The notes beneath the pieces were generated by a model that was given only the letters and a program-made list of their open reading frames with translations, was not told where the DNA came from and did no database searches. A DNA stretch of 8,708 nt, from NCBI GenBank assembly GCA_021851535.1, contig JAJZDT010000133.1, forward strand, positions 1 through 8,708. The letters run 5' to 3'. Both the position numbers and the translations under genes were made by a program. This document shows positions 4,605 to 8,708 of the stretch, in pieces; position 1 is the stretch's first letter; each line of letters opens with the position of its first letter. The stretch comes from Microcaldota archaeon. Lineage in GTDB: Archaea > Micrarchaeota > Micrarchaeia > Micrarchaeales > Micrarchaeaceae.

Positions 4605-4625
4605 CTTGTAAAATATATAAGCAAT

Positions 4626-4710
4626 GCAGGGGTAACAAAGCCTGGTCAAATGTGGCAGGTTCAGGGCCTGCTCCCTTAGGGGTTCGAGAGTTCAAATCCC
4701 TCCCCCTGCA
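4626..4710 (+). tRNA. tRNA-Leu (anticodon CAG)
   Basis: The 85-nt gene folds as a class II tRNA. The acceptor stem is GCAGGGG (4626-4632) with CCCCTGC (4703-4709), and the discriminator is A4710. The D arm has a three-pair stem ACA/TGT and carries the GCCTGGTCAAA loop common in archaeal leucine tRNAs. The anticodon stem is GCAGG/CCTGC with loop TTCAGGG, so the anticodon is CAG, reading CUG. The long variable arm CCC-TTA-GGG follows. The T loop is TTCAAAT, inside a T stem GAGAG/CCCTC that has one A-C mismatch (A4689, C4699). No intron is seen and the 3' CCA is not encoded. The gene sits between dtdA (divergent) and the Lrp-like gene (convergent). Confidence 0.95.
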
Positions 4711-4903
4711 TAGATAAAATAAAAACACTGTTTTGACGAACGTTCTAAGTTGTATAAAGTAGTTATTGTCAAATATTAAGTTTGTGTCTATTAATAGGTG
4801 TTAGATAGGTATCGAATCTTATAGTTAGGTTTTTAAATATTTCTAGTGAATATGACTTGATGATGAATATGTTGAACAATGGAAATAGCGGTTCTAATAC
4901 ATC

Positions 4904-6298
4904 TTAGTAATTCATTTCATTCTTTGTTAACTTATAGTCGACGAGTTTGGCGCTTTTTATAGTTTTGCTTTTTACGAGATTCCCGAATTGCACGCTATGG
5001 TTGTTATCAAACAAGCGCACGTTTATACTTCCTATTAGTACTTCTGTGATTATTAGTGAATTTAATTCGATTCCTTTGACATTTAACATTTGTTTTTCAA
5101 TTACTTCGAGTTCATTTTCATAAACTGGGATTATTAATGCTCCGCCATTTGGTATTCCAATATCAAATATTAAAGAAAAATAATTTGTATACTTATTATA
5201 AGCTATAACAATTTTCCGCCATTCATTTTTCGTTTCATTGAATTTATCCCAATTTGTTATTGCAAAGTATATCATTGCAAAATACTTTGGTTTAAGCCCA
5301 ATAATGTTAATTGTGGGTCTGAGTATTATCTCTTTTTTCTCTGATATTAAATCATCATAAGTATAATGTGAACTATTATATGGTAAATTATATTTTTTAT
5401 CTATTTCAGAAAAACTTGTTGTGCTATTTTCATTTAGTTCCCTAAGTGTTGCATATTCTTTATATTTTATTGTTTTGTTTTTGTCATCAATTTTTCGTTT
5501 ATTAATTACCTTCTCTTTTAAGACATCGAAAAATTCTTGCCTAATCTGCACAAGACCATAACTTTCGCTAATAGGTGTTAAGTACCATTTTGACGGATAT
5601 CGATTTAATAATGTATTTAACTTTTGAATAGGTTTTAGAAATAAGGCAATATTACTCTCTTCTAAATAATATATTATAACATCATATTCTCCTTTGGTTA
5701 TTATTACAAGTTGTACTTTAGGATCATCTTTAAATGCATCCCTTATGATTTCAGATGTTGGCTTTTTATCTAAAAATTTTATAAAAAACATATATGTATT
5801 AAAGCCAATTTTTGAGAGGTTGAATAACTCTAACTCATACCTTATAAAACCTGTTTCTTCAAATTTTTTTATTCTGTGCGTTACAGCAGTTTGAGATAGG
5901 CCACACATTTGACTTATATATTTTCGTTGTATCCTTGAATTCATACTCAACGCCATAAGTATCTTCTTATCCGCTTCATCTAAAATTGACTTTTTTGATT
6001 CTAAGATGTTATTATTACTTTCAGGAAGTGCTACTGTTCCTCCATGCTCTTTTATAACTTCTATTGCCTTATCAAGCGCGCTTTTGCGTTTCTTTTTCTT
6101 CTCAATAAATATACCATTGTTATCTATTCGCCCGAGATACTCGGATATCACTTTACTTTTTTTTGTTTCTTTTATATATTTATAACGATCTTTATATATG
6201 CAAAATTTCCCATTTATTACTCGCAACTGTATTTTATATGGATATTTTAACCGTAATTCGTTTAATTTATTAGATACGAGTTCTGGTAGTTCTTGCAT
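4904..6298 (-). CDS. Large Lrp/AsnC-like regulator: N-terminal transposase-like module plus two HTH-RAM units
   Basis: Typical Lrp/AsnC proteins are about 150 residues; this one has 464. Residues 22-66 (INGKFCIYKDRYKYIKE then ISEYLGRID) resemble the short beta-rich N-terminus found in IS4/IS1634-type transposases, and are followed by a basic linker (KKKKRK, 67-72). Residues 106-155 are a clear AsnC winged helix (LDEADKKILMALSMNSRI, GLSQTAVTHRIKKFEETGFI), and 168-232 fit a RAM ligand-binding domain, with TKGEYDVIIYY at 201-211. Residues 279-335 look like a degenerate second helix-turn-helix, and 337-424 like a second RAM domain. The tandem reading is my inference from pattern alone. A DNA-binding regulator responding to a small ligand, often an amino acid in this family, is likely. 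The ATG at 6298 has a TATA-like box 26 bp upstream and a palindrome between them, suggesting autoregulation. Ile codons are mainly ATA at the 5' end, as in the left-hand genes. Confidence 0.85.
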   Translation of the reverse strand: MQELPELVSNKLNELRLKYPYKIQLRVINGKFCIYKDRYKYIKETKKSKVISEYLGRIDNNGIFIEKKKKRKSALDKAIEVIKEHGGTVALPESNNNILESKKSILDEADKKILMALSMNSRIQRKYISQMCGLSQTAVTHRIKKFEETGFIRYELELFNLSKIGFNTYMFFIKFLDKKPTSEIIRDAFKDDPKVQLVIITKGEYDVIIYYLEESNIALFLKPIQKLNTLLNRYPSKWYLTPISESYGLVQIRQEFFDVLKEKVINKRKIDDKNKTIKYKEYATLRELNENSTTSFSEIDKKYNLPYNSSHYTYDDLISEKKEIILRPTINIIGLKPKYFAMIYFAITNWDKFNETKNEWRKIVIAYNKYTNYFSLIFDIGIPNGGALIIPVYENELEVIEKQMLNVKGIELNSLIITEVLIGSINVRLFDNNHSVQFGNLVKSKTIKSAKLVDYKLTKNEMNY

Positions 6299-6308
6299 AT
6301 GTGTAAAA

Positions 6309-6318
6309 TAACATGTTA
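6309..6318. promoter_or_regulatory. Palindrome TAACATGTTA, proximal copy (putative operator)
   Basis: This perfect 10-bp palindrome lies between the TATA-like box (6319-6328) and the start codon (6298) of the Lrp-like gene, where a bound regulator would block initiation. An identical copy occurs 51 bp away at 6360-6369, and both are part of the same 13-base string AATAACATGTTAA. Autoregulation by the Lrp-like protein is inferred from position only. Confidence 0.4.
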
Positions 6319-6328
6319 AATATTTAAA
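6319..6328 (-). promoter_or_regulatory. TATA-like box for the Lrp-like gene
   Basis: The minus strand reads TTTAAATATT, centred about 26 bp before the ATG at 6298. The transcript would be leaderless, and no Shine-Dalgarno sequence is seen before the ATG. Confidence 0.45.
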
Positions 6329-6359
6329 TCTATTGTTTTTCTATAAGTAAATAATATAA

Positions 6360-6369
6360 TAACATGTTA
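6360..6369. promoter_or_regulatory. Palindrome TAACATGTTA, distal copy (putative operator)
   Basis: This is the second perfect copy of the 10-bp palindrome, upstream of the Lrp-like gene's TATA-like box. The 51-bp centre-to-centre distance is close to five helical turns, so both sites face nearly the same side of the DNA, as expected for cooperative binding by an oligomeric Lrp-family protein. Confidence 0.4.
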
Positions 6370-6447
6370 ATTTAATGTTTTTTTAATTTAAATAGTACAT
6401 ATTGAAAATTATATGTTGATAAAAATAGTTTTTTATTGGATAATATA

Positions 6448-6457
6448 TTTATATATC
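6448..6457 (+). promoter_or_regulatory. TATA-like box for the hairpin RNA / small-gene transcript
   Basis: TTTATATATC lies about 28-37 bp before the GGGGG run at 6485, so initiation is expected at about 6478-6485. It would serve the structured RNA and possibly the two small genes that follow. Confidence 0.4.
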
Positions 6458-6484
6458 AAAGTTCATAATACTACTATTAAGTTT

Positions 6485-6560
6485 GGGGGTGTGGAGATAT
6501 GAAATGTTATATTTCAGCTGAGTATAAATCCCTACCATCGGTCGCCTTTTCCACACCCCC
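6485..6560 (+). ncRNA. Candidate structured RNA or structured 5' leader
   Basis: A GC-rich island in AT-rich DNA is closed by a perfect 11-bp inverted repeat, GGGGGTGTGGA (6485-6495) and TCCACACCCCC (6550-6560). One G-U and one A-U pair extend it to 13 bp. Inside it is a second hairpin, TGAAAT (6500-6505) with ATTTCA (6511-6516) and a five-base loop, and a weak ACC-ATC-GGT stem at 6534-6542. A TATA-like box about 30 bp upstream suggests transcription from just before the stem. It does not match tRNA: there is no T arm or anticodon arm. C/D-box RNA is not supported (CTGA at 6518-6521, no clear C box), and I could not fit H/ACA or any riboswitch I know. It ends 35 bp before the ATG at 6596, so it may be a regulatory leader rather than an independent RNA. 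Strand is inferred from the TATA-like box. Confidence 0.5.
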
Positions 6561-6595
6561 TCCCACCACTATTTACAATTAAATGCGTGTTTTAG

Positions 6596-6811
6596 ATGCT
6601 TTTGAACCCGATATATCTGTTGGCTGATTTTATTGGTGTTAAAAAGTATAGATTTAACGAGAAATCAGAAACTAATTATTTTGAAGACAGAAAGACGCGT
6701 GTAATAAGATTGTCTAATATATCCTGGCACATAGTATGGGCAGATGAATATGATAATTACATGAAGTATTATGCTGAAAAGAAGGTAATTGGGTGTATAA
6801 ATGGTGAATAG
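6596..6811 (+). CDS. Hypothetical small protein (71 residues)
   Basis: The product is soluble, rich in Tyr, Asn, Glu and Lys, with no membrane segment, signal peptide or cysteine cluster; its only Cys is near the end (VIGCINGE). The middle contains DRKTRVIRLSNISWHIVWAD, which could form a beta-strand pair, and the C-terminal third (DEYDNYMKYYAEKK) is probably helical. I recognise no family. An in-frame TAG sits directly before the ATG at 6596, so the start cannot move upstream. There is no obvious Shine-Dalgarno sequence, and the structured RNA ends 35 bp before it. Its 3' end overlaps the next gene by 11 bp, which supports both being real and translated from one message. An alternative is that only the second gene is coding. 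Confidence 0.5.
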   Translation: MLLNPIYLLADFIGVKKYRFNEKSETNYFEDRKTRVIRLSNISWHIVWADEYDNYMKYYAEKKVIGCINGE

Positions 6812-7148
6812 GAATACAAAAAACAATGTGAATAGAATAAAATCTACCTATATTGTGAGGGATGGCAAGAAATTTTGTAAATTTTACCTTGTGAATCCAA
6901 ATCATCTATATTTGAGCATCGATGCGCTCGCAGAGCAGCTAATAAGCATGAAGGAGATAAAAGAAATATACATAAATGACACAAATGAAAGCAAGGCTTT
7001 TGATGTAATGGTTAGATTCACTAAAGAGATGGAGCCAAAAGCTGTAGAATCATACATAAAAGAGCGTTTAAGCAACAGATATGGAGCATTTTCTTTCAAA
7101 AATCCTTCAGGTAATAATATACGTTTACACGGTAATGCAATATCTTAG
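6801..7148 (+). CDS. Small protein resembling a stand-alone RAM/ferredoxin-like domain (115 residues)
   Basis: After a basic, Asn-rich N-terminus, residues 22-102 read as beta-alpha-beta-beta-alpha-beta. The elements are KKFCKFYLVN, DALAEQLISM (helix), KEIKEIYIND, AFDVMVRFT, AVESYIKERLSN (helix) and GAFSFKN. This order, with a strand pair around 53-73 and a terminal strand after a Gly, is that of the Lrp/AsnC RAM domain, in which strand 2 carries the changing specificity signal and strand 3 contains a Y/F-D-V/I motif (here FDVMV). No helix-turn-helix is present, so it would be a stand-alone ligand-binding or partner protein. The start codon overlaps the preceding gene by 11 bp, indicating translational coupling. 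A full Lrp-like protein with RAM domains is encoded nearby on the other strand. The family call is by fold pattern only. Confidence 0.6.
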   Translation: MVNRNTKNNVNRIKSTYIVRDGKKFCKFYLVNPNHLYLSIDALAEQLISMKEIKEIYINDTNESKAFDVMVRFTKEMEPKAVESYIKERLSNRYGAFSFKNPSGNNIRLHGNAIS

Positions 7149-7212
7149 TTTGCCATATTTTTCAAACATTATTTTTGAATAAATGACAATTGTAATGTAG
7201 TTATTGCTAAAT

Positions 7213-7244
7213 GAAGTTTTTAAACAACGTGCACGAAAAACTTC
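7213..7244 (+). repeat. Inverted repeat (9-bp stem, 14-base loop)
   Basis: GAAGTTTTT (7213-7221) pairs perfectly with AAAAACTTC (7236-7244), and the loop contains the palindrome CGTGCACG. It begins 65 bp after the stop codon of the RAM-like gene, so it could be a 3' processing or termination structure of that operon, or a protein-binding site. Strand is assigned on the assumption that it belongs to the upstream transcript. Confidence 0.35.
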
Positions 7245-7454
7245 CCATCTTTTGTGAATAAAAAGATATGTTGTAATATAATGCAAATTTTAATAGTTTA
7301 AACCCCATACAGTCATTTAAGCTACATTTAAAAATCAGCATTATAAAAACGCCACACTCCTAATTATAAACTAACAAAAAATTAAAATACGGATTAACAA
7401 CCATTACTATTATTATTTCTATTGTTCAACGCATAATTAACTTGTTATAGTATA

Positions 7455-7504: not shown

Positions 7505-7945
7505 ATGATTAAAGATTTTTATGAAGTCATTTTAGTAGACTTTGGAGGTATGTTACCTTTTAAATTGGAAAAAGGGGATATTCTTACCAAACAGGAGATT
7601 GTTTCCACCAATAACTTAAAAAAATTTATTTTAGATTTAGAAAATCTTTTAGATTATGAATTTATTTATGTCGGATCAGATATATTAGAAGCGAAACTTT
7701 TTCATAGATTAATAGCAAAAGACGGGTTATTGGAATTGCTTATAGGAACTCCAATTACTTTAATAGGACATTTTAAAGATAAACGACAAGCAGAACAATT
7801 CAAAGTGTCACTTGAAAAGGTATTAAGTAATATTGTACCAGATGTATTACAACCTATGTTAATTGAATCTATAGAAATAAAAAAAGTAAAAAAAGAAATT
7901 GTAGCTTTTGAACAAGAACGATTTAAAAAATTGGGAGTGAGTTGA
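7505..7945 (+). CDS. Hypothetical protein (146 residues), first gene of the FIST operon
   Basis: I do not recognise this protein. It is soluble, with an N-terminal half of mixed strands and helices (FYEVILVDFGGMLPF, then KKFILDLENLLDYEFIYVG). A central LLIGTPITLIGHFKD segment follows, and then a long Lys/Glu-rich helical C-terminus (from about 90 to 146) that may form a coiled coil. There is no membrane segment, signal peptide or Cys/His cluster. Its TGA (7943-7945) is followed at once by the ATG of the FIST gene, so the two are translated from one message and the products probably act together. Ile is coded by ATT more often than ATA (about 11 to 6), unlike the ATA-dominated genes at the left of the window, and Leu is mostly TTA. 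Confidence 0.7.
   Translation: MIKDFYEVILVDFGGMLPFKLEKGDILTKQEIVSTNNLKKFILDLENLLDYEFIYVGSDILEAKLFHRLIAKDGLLELLIGTPITLIGHFKDKRQAEQFKVSLEKVLSNIVPDVLQPMLIESIEIKKVKKEIVAFEQERFKKLGVS
7933..7941 (+). promoter_or_regulatory. Shine-Dalgarno sequence of the FIST gene
   Basis: GGGAGTGAG precedes the ATG at 7946 by about five bases and closely matches GGAGGTGA, the complement of the archaeal 16S rRNA 3' end. It lies within the last codons of the preceding gene and fixes 7946 as the start, rather than the internal ATG at 7961. Confidence 0.6.
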
Positions 7946-8708
7946 ATGGACAATGGATTAATGAGCAAATGGGAAGATTTACAGGGTACTAAGAACAATA
8001 CTTCAGAAGTATTATTTACAGGAGGTGGTATGTCAGTGAACCCCGATTCGTATACCGCAGGAAAGGAAGCTGCAAAAAAAGCATTAGATGAATTGAAAGG
8101 TAAAATGCCTACAATAAGTTATATTTTCTTTTCTGGTGATTACAATCCATATGAACTAACTAAAGGATTAAAAGAAATTTTAAAAGACAGTGAATTTATA
8201 GGAGGGATGGGAGATAGAGTAATATATGATGATAAAGTCATAGAAAAAGGAGTTGTAGTAGCAAGTATACAATCAAAATTTTTACATGTAGGTATTGCTT
8301 CTGCCGATAATGTTTCAGAAAATTCTTTTGAAGCTGCAAAAAAAGTAACAACCGAGGCGCTTTCAAAGTTATCTATAGATAGTTACATTGATCCATATAT
8401 GCAAGCACAACGCGTAAAAGTTGGAGATGTTAGAGGTATTGTTAAAGTACCACCATACTATATCCACGTATTTGTAAATGGATTTAAATTACCAAAAATG
8501 GGTGAAGAAAATAAAATAATTTTGGGCATTTCGAATATTGTTGGAAGGCAGGTTCCGATTTGGGGTGGTAGTTTTGAAACTGCACTGGAAAAAGTATTAG
8601 GTAAATATGAAATATATTCCTTACACTCGGGTAAAGTTCTTAAAGATGGTCTTATAGTATCATTCACTTCGACAAGCACACTATATGGTTATTCAATGGC
8701 ACATGGTG
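7946..8708 (+). CDS. FIST-domain signal-transduction protein (3' partial)
   Basis: The frame is open from the ATG at 7946 to the window edge, giving 254 residues so far. It has FIST_N features: an early strand and helix (EVLFTGGGMSVNPDSYTAG, AAKKALDELK), a strand-rich FFSGDYNPYELTKG, and EFIGGMGDRVIYDDKVIEKG followed by VVVASIQSKFLHVGIAS. A second half reads VPIWGGSFETALEKVLG, HSGKVLKDGLIVSF and STLYGYSMAHG, matching the typical GG-[SA]-x-x-D/E, G-x-V-x-x-x-G/A-x-V-x-x-x and HG signatures. The FIST_C domain should lie past the edge. FIST proteins are predicted intracellular sensors of small ligands such as amino acids, often paired with kinases, chemoreceptors or cyclases, none of which is visible here. 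No signal peptide or membrane segment is seen. The Shine-Dalgarno sequence and the directly adjacent upstream gene indicate an operon. Confidence 0.8.
   Translation, partial: MDNGLMSKWEDLQGTKNNTSEVLFTGGGMSVNPDSYTAGKEAAKKALDELKGKMPTISYIFFSGDYNPYELTKGLKEILKDSEFIGGMGDRVIYDDKVIEKGVVVASIQSKFLHVGIASADNVSENSFEAAKKVTTEALSKLSIDSYIDPYMQAQRVKVGDVRGIVKVPPYYIHVFVNGFKLPKMGEENKIILGISNIVGRQVPIWGGSFETALEKVLGKYEIYSLHSGKVLKDGLIVSFTSTSTLYGYSMAHG

Follow-up and report, generated by a model that had tools for sequence, protein, structure and literature searches.

The window is the whole stretch of DNA that was analyzed, 8,708 nucleotides of contig JAJZDT010000133.1 from a Microcaldota archaeon; its assembly (0.73 Mb in 83 contigs) is 77% complete. 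A GC-rich hairpin lies at 6485-6560, between the divergent gene of a tandem Lrp/AsnC-like regulator and two small genes on the plus strand (Table 1). Farther along, positions 7505-8708 hold a gene for a 146-aa protein that matched no family above cut-off and then a FIST-domain gene; a TATA promoter that is similar by eye lies upstream of this pair.

Table 1. Features at and around the hairpin, in window coordinates
Feature	Position	Strand	Remarks
Tandem Lrp/AsnC-like regulator, 464 aa	4904-6298	-	Divergent; several related copies per genome in relatives
TATA-like box TTTATATATC	6448-6457	+	Same promoter position-weight matrix (PWM) at related loci
CATAATA initiator-like motif	6464-6470	+	Probable transcription start
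Long stem, 5' arm	6485-6497	+	Contains the Shine-Dalgarno (SD)-like GGGGGTGTGGAG
Short ORF MKCYISAEYKSLPSVAFSTPPPTTIYN	6499-6582	+	ATG at 6499-6501, 27 codons and TAA; crosses the hairpin
Internal hairpin 1	6500-6506/6510-6516	+	Six Watson-Crick pairs and one G-U
Internal hairpin 2	6517-6542	+	Weaker, interrupted
Long stem, 3' arm	6548-6560	+	C-rich; within the second half of the short ORF
TCCCACCACT	6561-6570	+	Carries the C-rich CCCACC motif that recurs in related leaders
71-aa protein, family C1 (RPVKLV..SWRVVWADE)	6596-6811	+	No clear SD of its own, as read from the sequence
115-aa protein, family C0	6801-7148	+	Predicted ferredoxin-like alpha/beta fold

The hairpin and its neighboring genes

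An initial annotation of this DNA had described an 11-bp stem (13 bp with a G-U and an A-U pair) around a 54-base interior with a second, 6-bp hairpin. The stem is present, with 11 Watson-Crick pairs, one G-U and one A-U joining 6485-6497 to 6548-6560; the interior has the length given when the 11-bp stem is the one counted, and the second hairpin was found with an extra G-U pair. Eight of the 13 pairs are G-C, more than in any other long stem detected in the window; the runner-up, the acceptor stem of a tRNA-Leu, has six. RNA folding, which had been advised, was carried out on positions 6470-6580 in RNAfold and gave -30.7 kcal/mol, a stability that not one of 200 shuffles reached (z = -3.61). 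The hairpin is real. It also stands out as the GC-rich island that had been reported, its G+C content being 47%; the intergenic DNA before it (6299-6480) has 13%, and the whole window has 31%. The element had been called non-coding. It is intergenic between the annotated neighbors, but the 27-codon ORF crosses it, and since many relatives likewise have a short ORF across the hairpin, the label is doubtful. The ORF had been overlooked, as had the SD-like sequence just upstream of its ATG, inside the 5' arm.

The annotation had been unable to fit the element to tRNA or to another known RNA class, and the searches agreed with this. Covariance models of Rfam 15, applied to the whole window at the gathering score, yielded no family match to the hairpin, and a permissive search of 6300-6820 yielded nothing near a gathering score. 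When the covariance search was extended to 20 related loci, just an RNase P and a tRNA were found, both away from the leaders. ARAGORN did not call the hairpin a tRNA; the sole tRNA that it located in the window was tRNA-Leu (CAG) at 4625-4711, which Rfam missed at the gathering score. A DNA search with the element in 41 genomes (its own included; E ≤ 10) returned, besides itself, just short matches, one of which was 30 nt over the promoter in genome G067. A look at related genomes, likewise advised, had a divided outcome: among 85 genomes of the family no close DNA relative of the element was found, but its architecture recurs, as described below. The protein collection included near relatives of the window's protein and regulator (P0001, P0005-P0009). 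No relatives turned up among phage records or viral contigs, and a viral origin is therefore not supported.

The regulator has an AsnC-type helix-turn-helix (HTH), with PF13404 and PF13412 above cut-off. Its structural model (pLDDT 79.6) had as its best PDB match the siroheme decarboxylase NirDL (4ch7; E = 1.1e-12). As modeled, the gene at 4904-6298 is thus one that combines an AsnC-type HTH with an Lrp-like effector fold. Its likeness to NirDL and to the Lrp/AsnC (FFRP) proteins lies in that HTH and in the predicted tandem Lrp-like fold; unlike them, it has an extra N-terminal region and many relatives per genome. Matches to it, some of them partial or weak, were found in 57 of 60 genomes (its own included), with up to 16 in one genome. 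An excerpt on the archaeon Mia14 places an Lrp-AsnC regulator beside a copper ATPase (PMC5498576).

Matches to the 115-aa protein were found in 22 of the 60 genomes and to the 71-aa protein in five (own genome included in both counts). Among the 37 listed matches of the 115-aa protein, 24 were within 1.5 kb of a listed regulator, where only the regulators listed on the contigs concerned were considered. The 115-aa protein was modeled with a ferredoxin-like fold (pLDDT 73.9). A fold search was ambiguous (best E = 0.034), with S6, RRM, ACT and FFRP-like hits and no significant PDB match, and when profiles of the 115-aa family and of the regulator were compared, no relation was detected (probability 0.4%). 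Since this fold is common to RNA-binding and ligand-binding proteins and no PDB match was significant, a putative autoregulatory role of the 115-aa protein is only a lead.

Recurrence of the promoter and the leader

Regions upstream of regulator paralogues were collected; exact duplicates were removed, and near copies were kept. The regulators were taken from the matches listed, where the match began near the protein start (mostly residue 22 or less). From 80 regions, L138, which has 174 bases, and L139, in which no regulator start matched, were withdrawn, and L062-L081 were added, resulting in 98. A scan of reference genomes with the regulator profile supplied 77 loci, all 77 titled Micrarchaeota, Micrarchaeaceae or (five rows) Marsarchaeota. 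A known start was available for 64 of these; 32 duplicates and two that were too short were taken out, and the 30 that were added brought the total to 128 regions.

A promoter model consisting of a TATA box followed by CATAATA was matched in 84 of the 128 regions, compared to two of 119 control stretches. The model was refined on the same 128 regions in which it was counted, so the control figure is the telling number. The matches sit 151-231 nt from the regulator start. At the window's locus, the TATA-like box that the annotation had noticed upstream of the hairpin is indeed there and is followed by the CATAATA motif. No match was found in 44 of the 128 regions, including all four G010 copies examined (L073, L083, L086 and L109), which have no promoter-anchored leader. 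In contig G047:C1, each of the three upstream regions examined (L066, L130 and L150) has the leader. Some C0 genes without a regulator in the examined stretch (L026, L028, L041, L042 and L049) had no promoter match above 12.

The bases of the anchored leaders follow a fixed order: G makes up 47% at +20 to +29, and from +60 to +119 C makes up 30-36% and G 14-17%. Behind the promoter come a G-rich SD, often a start codon, and then a C-rich stretch able to pair back. By single-linkage clustering, C0-type proteins were present at 66 of the 128 loci and C1-type proteins at 46. Other downstream genes occur at few loci, namely Nop (L131, L107), orotidine decarboxylase (L097) and a proteasome subunit (L104); the Nop-domain gene of L107 has its counterpart at L143 in a similar protein by clustering, and downstream of L149 none was identified. 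Dozens of paralogous loci from many genera have a structured leader that is alike in architecture and differs in sequence. A plain sequence search misses the leader, and locus-wise pairing tests reveal it.

The motif CCCACC was found in 33 of 81 leaders (4.3 expected), in 14 on the reverse strand, and in one of 78 controls. Its enrichment on the plus strand would suit a stand-alone, trans-acting small non-coding RNA in which CCCACC and CCCAATCCCAA, as C-rich stretches, served as anti-Shine-Dalgarno seeds on other mRNAs. Such an RNA would also be consistent with the leaders of L107, L143 and L149, in which a C-rich single strand of 20 nt is kept between two hairpins and no such ORF is found, and with L145, the second copy in the window's genome, past which the next 1.2 kb of that strand had no listed ORF of at least 60 aa. 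Many copies, on the other hand, possess an open frame with an SD and a start codon, and they stand first in a small operon that recurs among the loci. In addition, a scan for bacterial-type signals found no intrinsic-terminator-like site in 6300-7300 (0; shuffles, 0.3). A free-standing RNA was accordingly judged unlikely. In the leaders of L107, L143 and L149, ACCCAACATACCCAATCCCAA is unchanged beside the hairpins.

Pairing within and across loci

Inverted repeats with a score of at least 15 were found in 20 of 94 regions (those of the 98 that were 500 nt or more), compared to 2.6% of shuffles and seven of 91 control stretches; 18 of the 20 begin 172-243 nt from the regulator. For the partner-swap test, the 84 anchored loci were reduced to one per similarity group with at least 160 nt past the anchor, leaving 58 non-redundant loci. 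The SD region paired with its own downstream region at -24.04 kcal/mol and with those of other loci at -19.80 kcal/mol (Z = -10.3; p ≤ 5e-5 in 20,000 permutations). The same test on the region farther downstream gave no own-partner advantage (p = 0.84). On the minus strand the effect was weaker yet positive (-23.06 kcal/mol, Z = -7.4).

Consensus folds were then computed for 15 groups of related copies. On the plus strand, 411 pairs were constant, 51 were changed on one side, 10 were changed on both sides and 17 were mismatched; the corresponding numbers on the minus strand were 391, 36, 6 and 43. The ratio of consistent to mismatched pairs was hence 61:17 on the plus strand and 42:43 on the minus strand (Fisher p = 1.7e-4). 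Double changes include C-G to T-A in L099/L194 and A-T to G-C in L066/L167/L223. The pairing is kept by coordinated change across related loci.

Pairing of this kind could also serve in DNA, the arms being operator half-sites of an inverted repeat for the divergent Lrp/AsnC-like regulator, with a sequence private to each paralogue. The arms are indeed locus-specific inverted repeats that adjoin the gene of a DNA-binding regulator, pairing on the minus strand was above chance, and in the extension of the best stem G-U was not favored over A-C (13 vs. 11, i.e. no strand preference). But the excess of consistent changes over mismatches is confined to the plus strand, the 5' arm usually includes or adjoins the SD behind the promoter, and the span of the whole repeat varies from about 55 to 145 nt. 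An operator was regarded as quite unlikely on these grounds. Direct tests of strand preference gave mixed p values of 0.005 (permutation), 0.087 (t-test) and 0.20 (Wilcoxon), and pairing at the RNA level is consequently treated as favored, not proven.

The short ORF and masking of its ribosome-binding site

A strict SD with a start codon was present in 36 of the 58 non-redundant loci, 20-38 nt after CATAATA (59 nt at one locus), and was absent in 22. In those 36 loci the frame of the ORF stayed open for a median of 36.5 codons; the other two frames reached 8 (p = 0.0003) and 20 (p = 0.096), so that frame 0 was not significantly longer than frame 2. Synonymous changes were counted in 13 of the 15 groups, the L107 group (no ORF) and the L145 group being left out. 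They numbered 91 in the ORF frame, with 72.2 expected (p = 0.008), and the excess was seen in this frame only. The frames of L069 and L099 were chosen after the changes had been viewed, and the ORF of L093 continues into a zinc-finger-like protein; without these three groups, 53 of 186 changes were synonymous, with 45.8 expected (p = 0.13). Several pairs of copies differ mainly non-synonymously, and a frameshift is present in L096. The ORF runs on in frame into the zinc-finger-like protein at L093/L095/L148 and into a C1 or C0 protein at L079 and L069. By eye, no peptide motif was common to different loci. Selection on the peptide is doubtful as judged from these comparisons. Because the synonymous excess does not hold, several pairs differ mainly non-synonymously, one copy has a frameshift, one subgroup has no ORF and other ORFs are fused, it may be the open frame that is kept, more than any particular peptide.

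The short protein might nevertheless be the conserved product and the stem a by-product of a G-rich SD and C-rich codons. The openness of frame 0 and the in-frame fusions at some loci would agree with this, but swapped partners with equally G-rich and C-rich parts pair significantly worse, and both the lack of a motif between loci and the loss of the synonymous excess speak against it. This explanation was considered very unlikely.

Occlusion of the SD was calculated for the 36 loci that have both SD and start codon. The predicted probability that the leader SD is unpaired had a mean of 0.08 and a median of 0.01; it was 0.14 with swapped downstream parts (p = 4e-4) and 0.35 for the SDs of 26 downstream genes (p = 5e-7). 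For the window's SD the model gave 0.006 at 37° C. The leader SD is thus predicted to be almost fully occluded. A switch with the SD of the next gene was not supported, own pairing at 22 loci being no better than swapped pairing (p = 0.83). An RNA thermometer that opens on warming, for which an SD sequestered near the 5' end would be apt, is highly improbable, as the window copy stays closed in the model (SD unpaired 0.002-0.043 from 25 to 75° C).

The annotation had left the choice between a new small RNA and a cis-acting leader. The leader is the part that gained support, from the recurring structure, the position of the promoter, the operon context and the buried SD; the stand-alone small RNA came out weaker. 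The hairpin is probably a cis-acting leader, predicted to mask an SD, that overlaps a short ORF and controls the 71-aa and 115-aa genes. Its structure, the locus-specific pairing, the covariation, the occlusion of the SD and the recurring promoter and operon context are supported by computation.

In the mechanism that we infer for this leader, a small operon (27-codon ORF, 71-aa gene and 115-aa gene) would be transcribed from the TATA/CATAATA promoter, away from the regulator. The C-rich 3' arm, in the second half of the ORF, would pair with the G-rich SD before the ORF and mask it. A ribosome would then have to load ahead of the transcription of the 3' arm or wait for a factor to open the stem, and translation of the short ORF would hold the arms apart. 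With the lock inside the ORF that it controls, translation and folding would exclude each other. Reinitiation is plausible at the 71-aa gene, which lacks a clear SD and begins 13 nt past the stop of the short ORF, and in the window translation of the short ORF would feed the 71-aa gene in this way. Candidates for opening the stem are translation itself, the regulator and the 115-aa protein. A more specific version was entertained tentatively and held to be rather unlikely, in which the paralogous loci carry private, non-cross-reacting SD-masking locks that are opened by the pioneer ribosome or by the operon's own small protein with its ferredoxin fold (S6/RRM/RAM-like). If true, it would mean that an autoregulatory circuit has undergone repeated duplication in archaeal genomes that are among the smallest.

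In RNA thermometers and SD-sequestering riboswitches, the SD is paired in a stem, and the SD in the stem of the present leader resembles theirs. The leader differs from both in that the modeled stem of the window is too stable to melt and no sequence-conserved ligand domain was seen. Bacterial mRNA leaders with upstream ORFs (uORFs) or leader peptides, exemplified in an excerpt on the uORF of a Salmonella Mg2+ transporter (PMC8092293), share with it a short leader ORF, RNA structure over a ribosome-binding site and downstream genes that are co-transcribed, the last presumably so in the present case; a tool for such uORFs is uORF4u, according to an excerpt (PMC10219788). Unlike those leaders, this one is archaeal, its 3' arm lies inside the short ORF and masks that ORF's own SD, each of its many paralogous loci has a private sequence, and at the 22 loci no structure that competes with the next SD was seen. 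The family is best read as akin to known SD-masking leaders, from which it differs in its archaeal setting, the overlap with a short ORF and its locus-private sequences. A search of the open-access literature brought up no account of a comparable cis-acting RNA leader in Micrarchaeota; for Ca. Micrarchaeum harzensis, whose genome has 989,838 bp, an excerpt names RNA-seq data from a co-culture (BioSamples SAMN15702898 and SAMN15702859; PMC8975820). It is probable that the leaders form a newly recognized recurrent group of mRNA leaders from very small archaea, where each locus seems to have a stem of its own that conceals the ribosome-binding site of a very short ORF. They would offer a testable handle on gene control in archaea that are hard to study (draft genomes of about 0.4-1.3 Mb), and they also bear on archaeal translational control generally.

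Some copies were compared over longer stretches. Within single genomes, the members of L119/L121, of L085/L087/L097 and of L129/L141 are nearly identical in the leader and the following start and differ in the stretch on the regulator side, a pattern pointing to leader duplication or gene conversion. L145 (G000:C26) and L147 (G001:C28), the latter from a congener, are identical between the initiator and the end of the stem, and about 35 nt past the stem the two become abruptly unrelated; the break is a possible recombination breakpoint. Among the regulators, P0005 equals that of the window through residue 314, beyond which it diverges in blocks of 95, 85 and 76% identity, and P0008 shares with it 28 identical residues, 92% identity over the first 66 residues and 57% overall. 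These alignments suggest that the regulators are mosaic, with recombination among copies.
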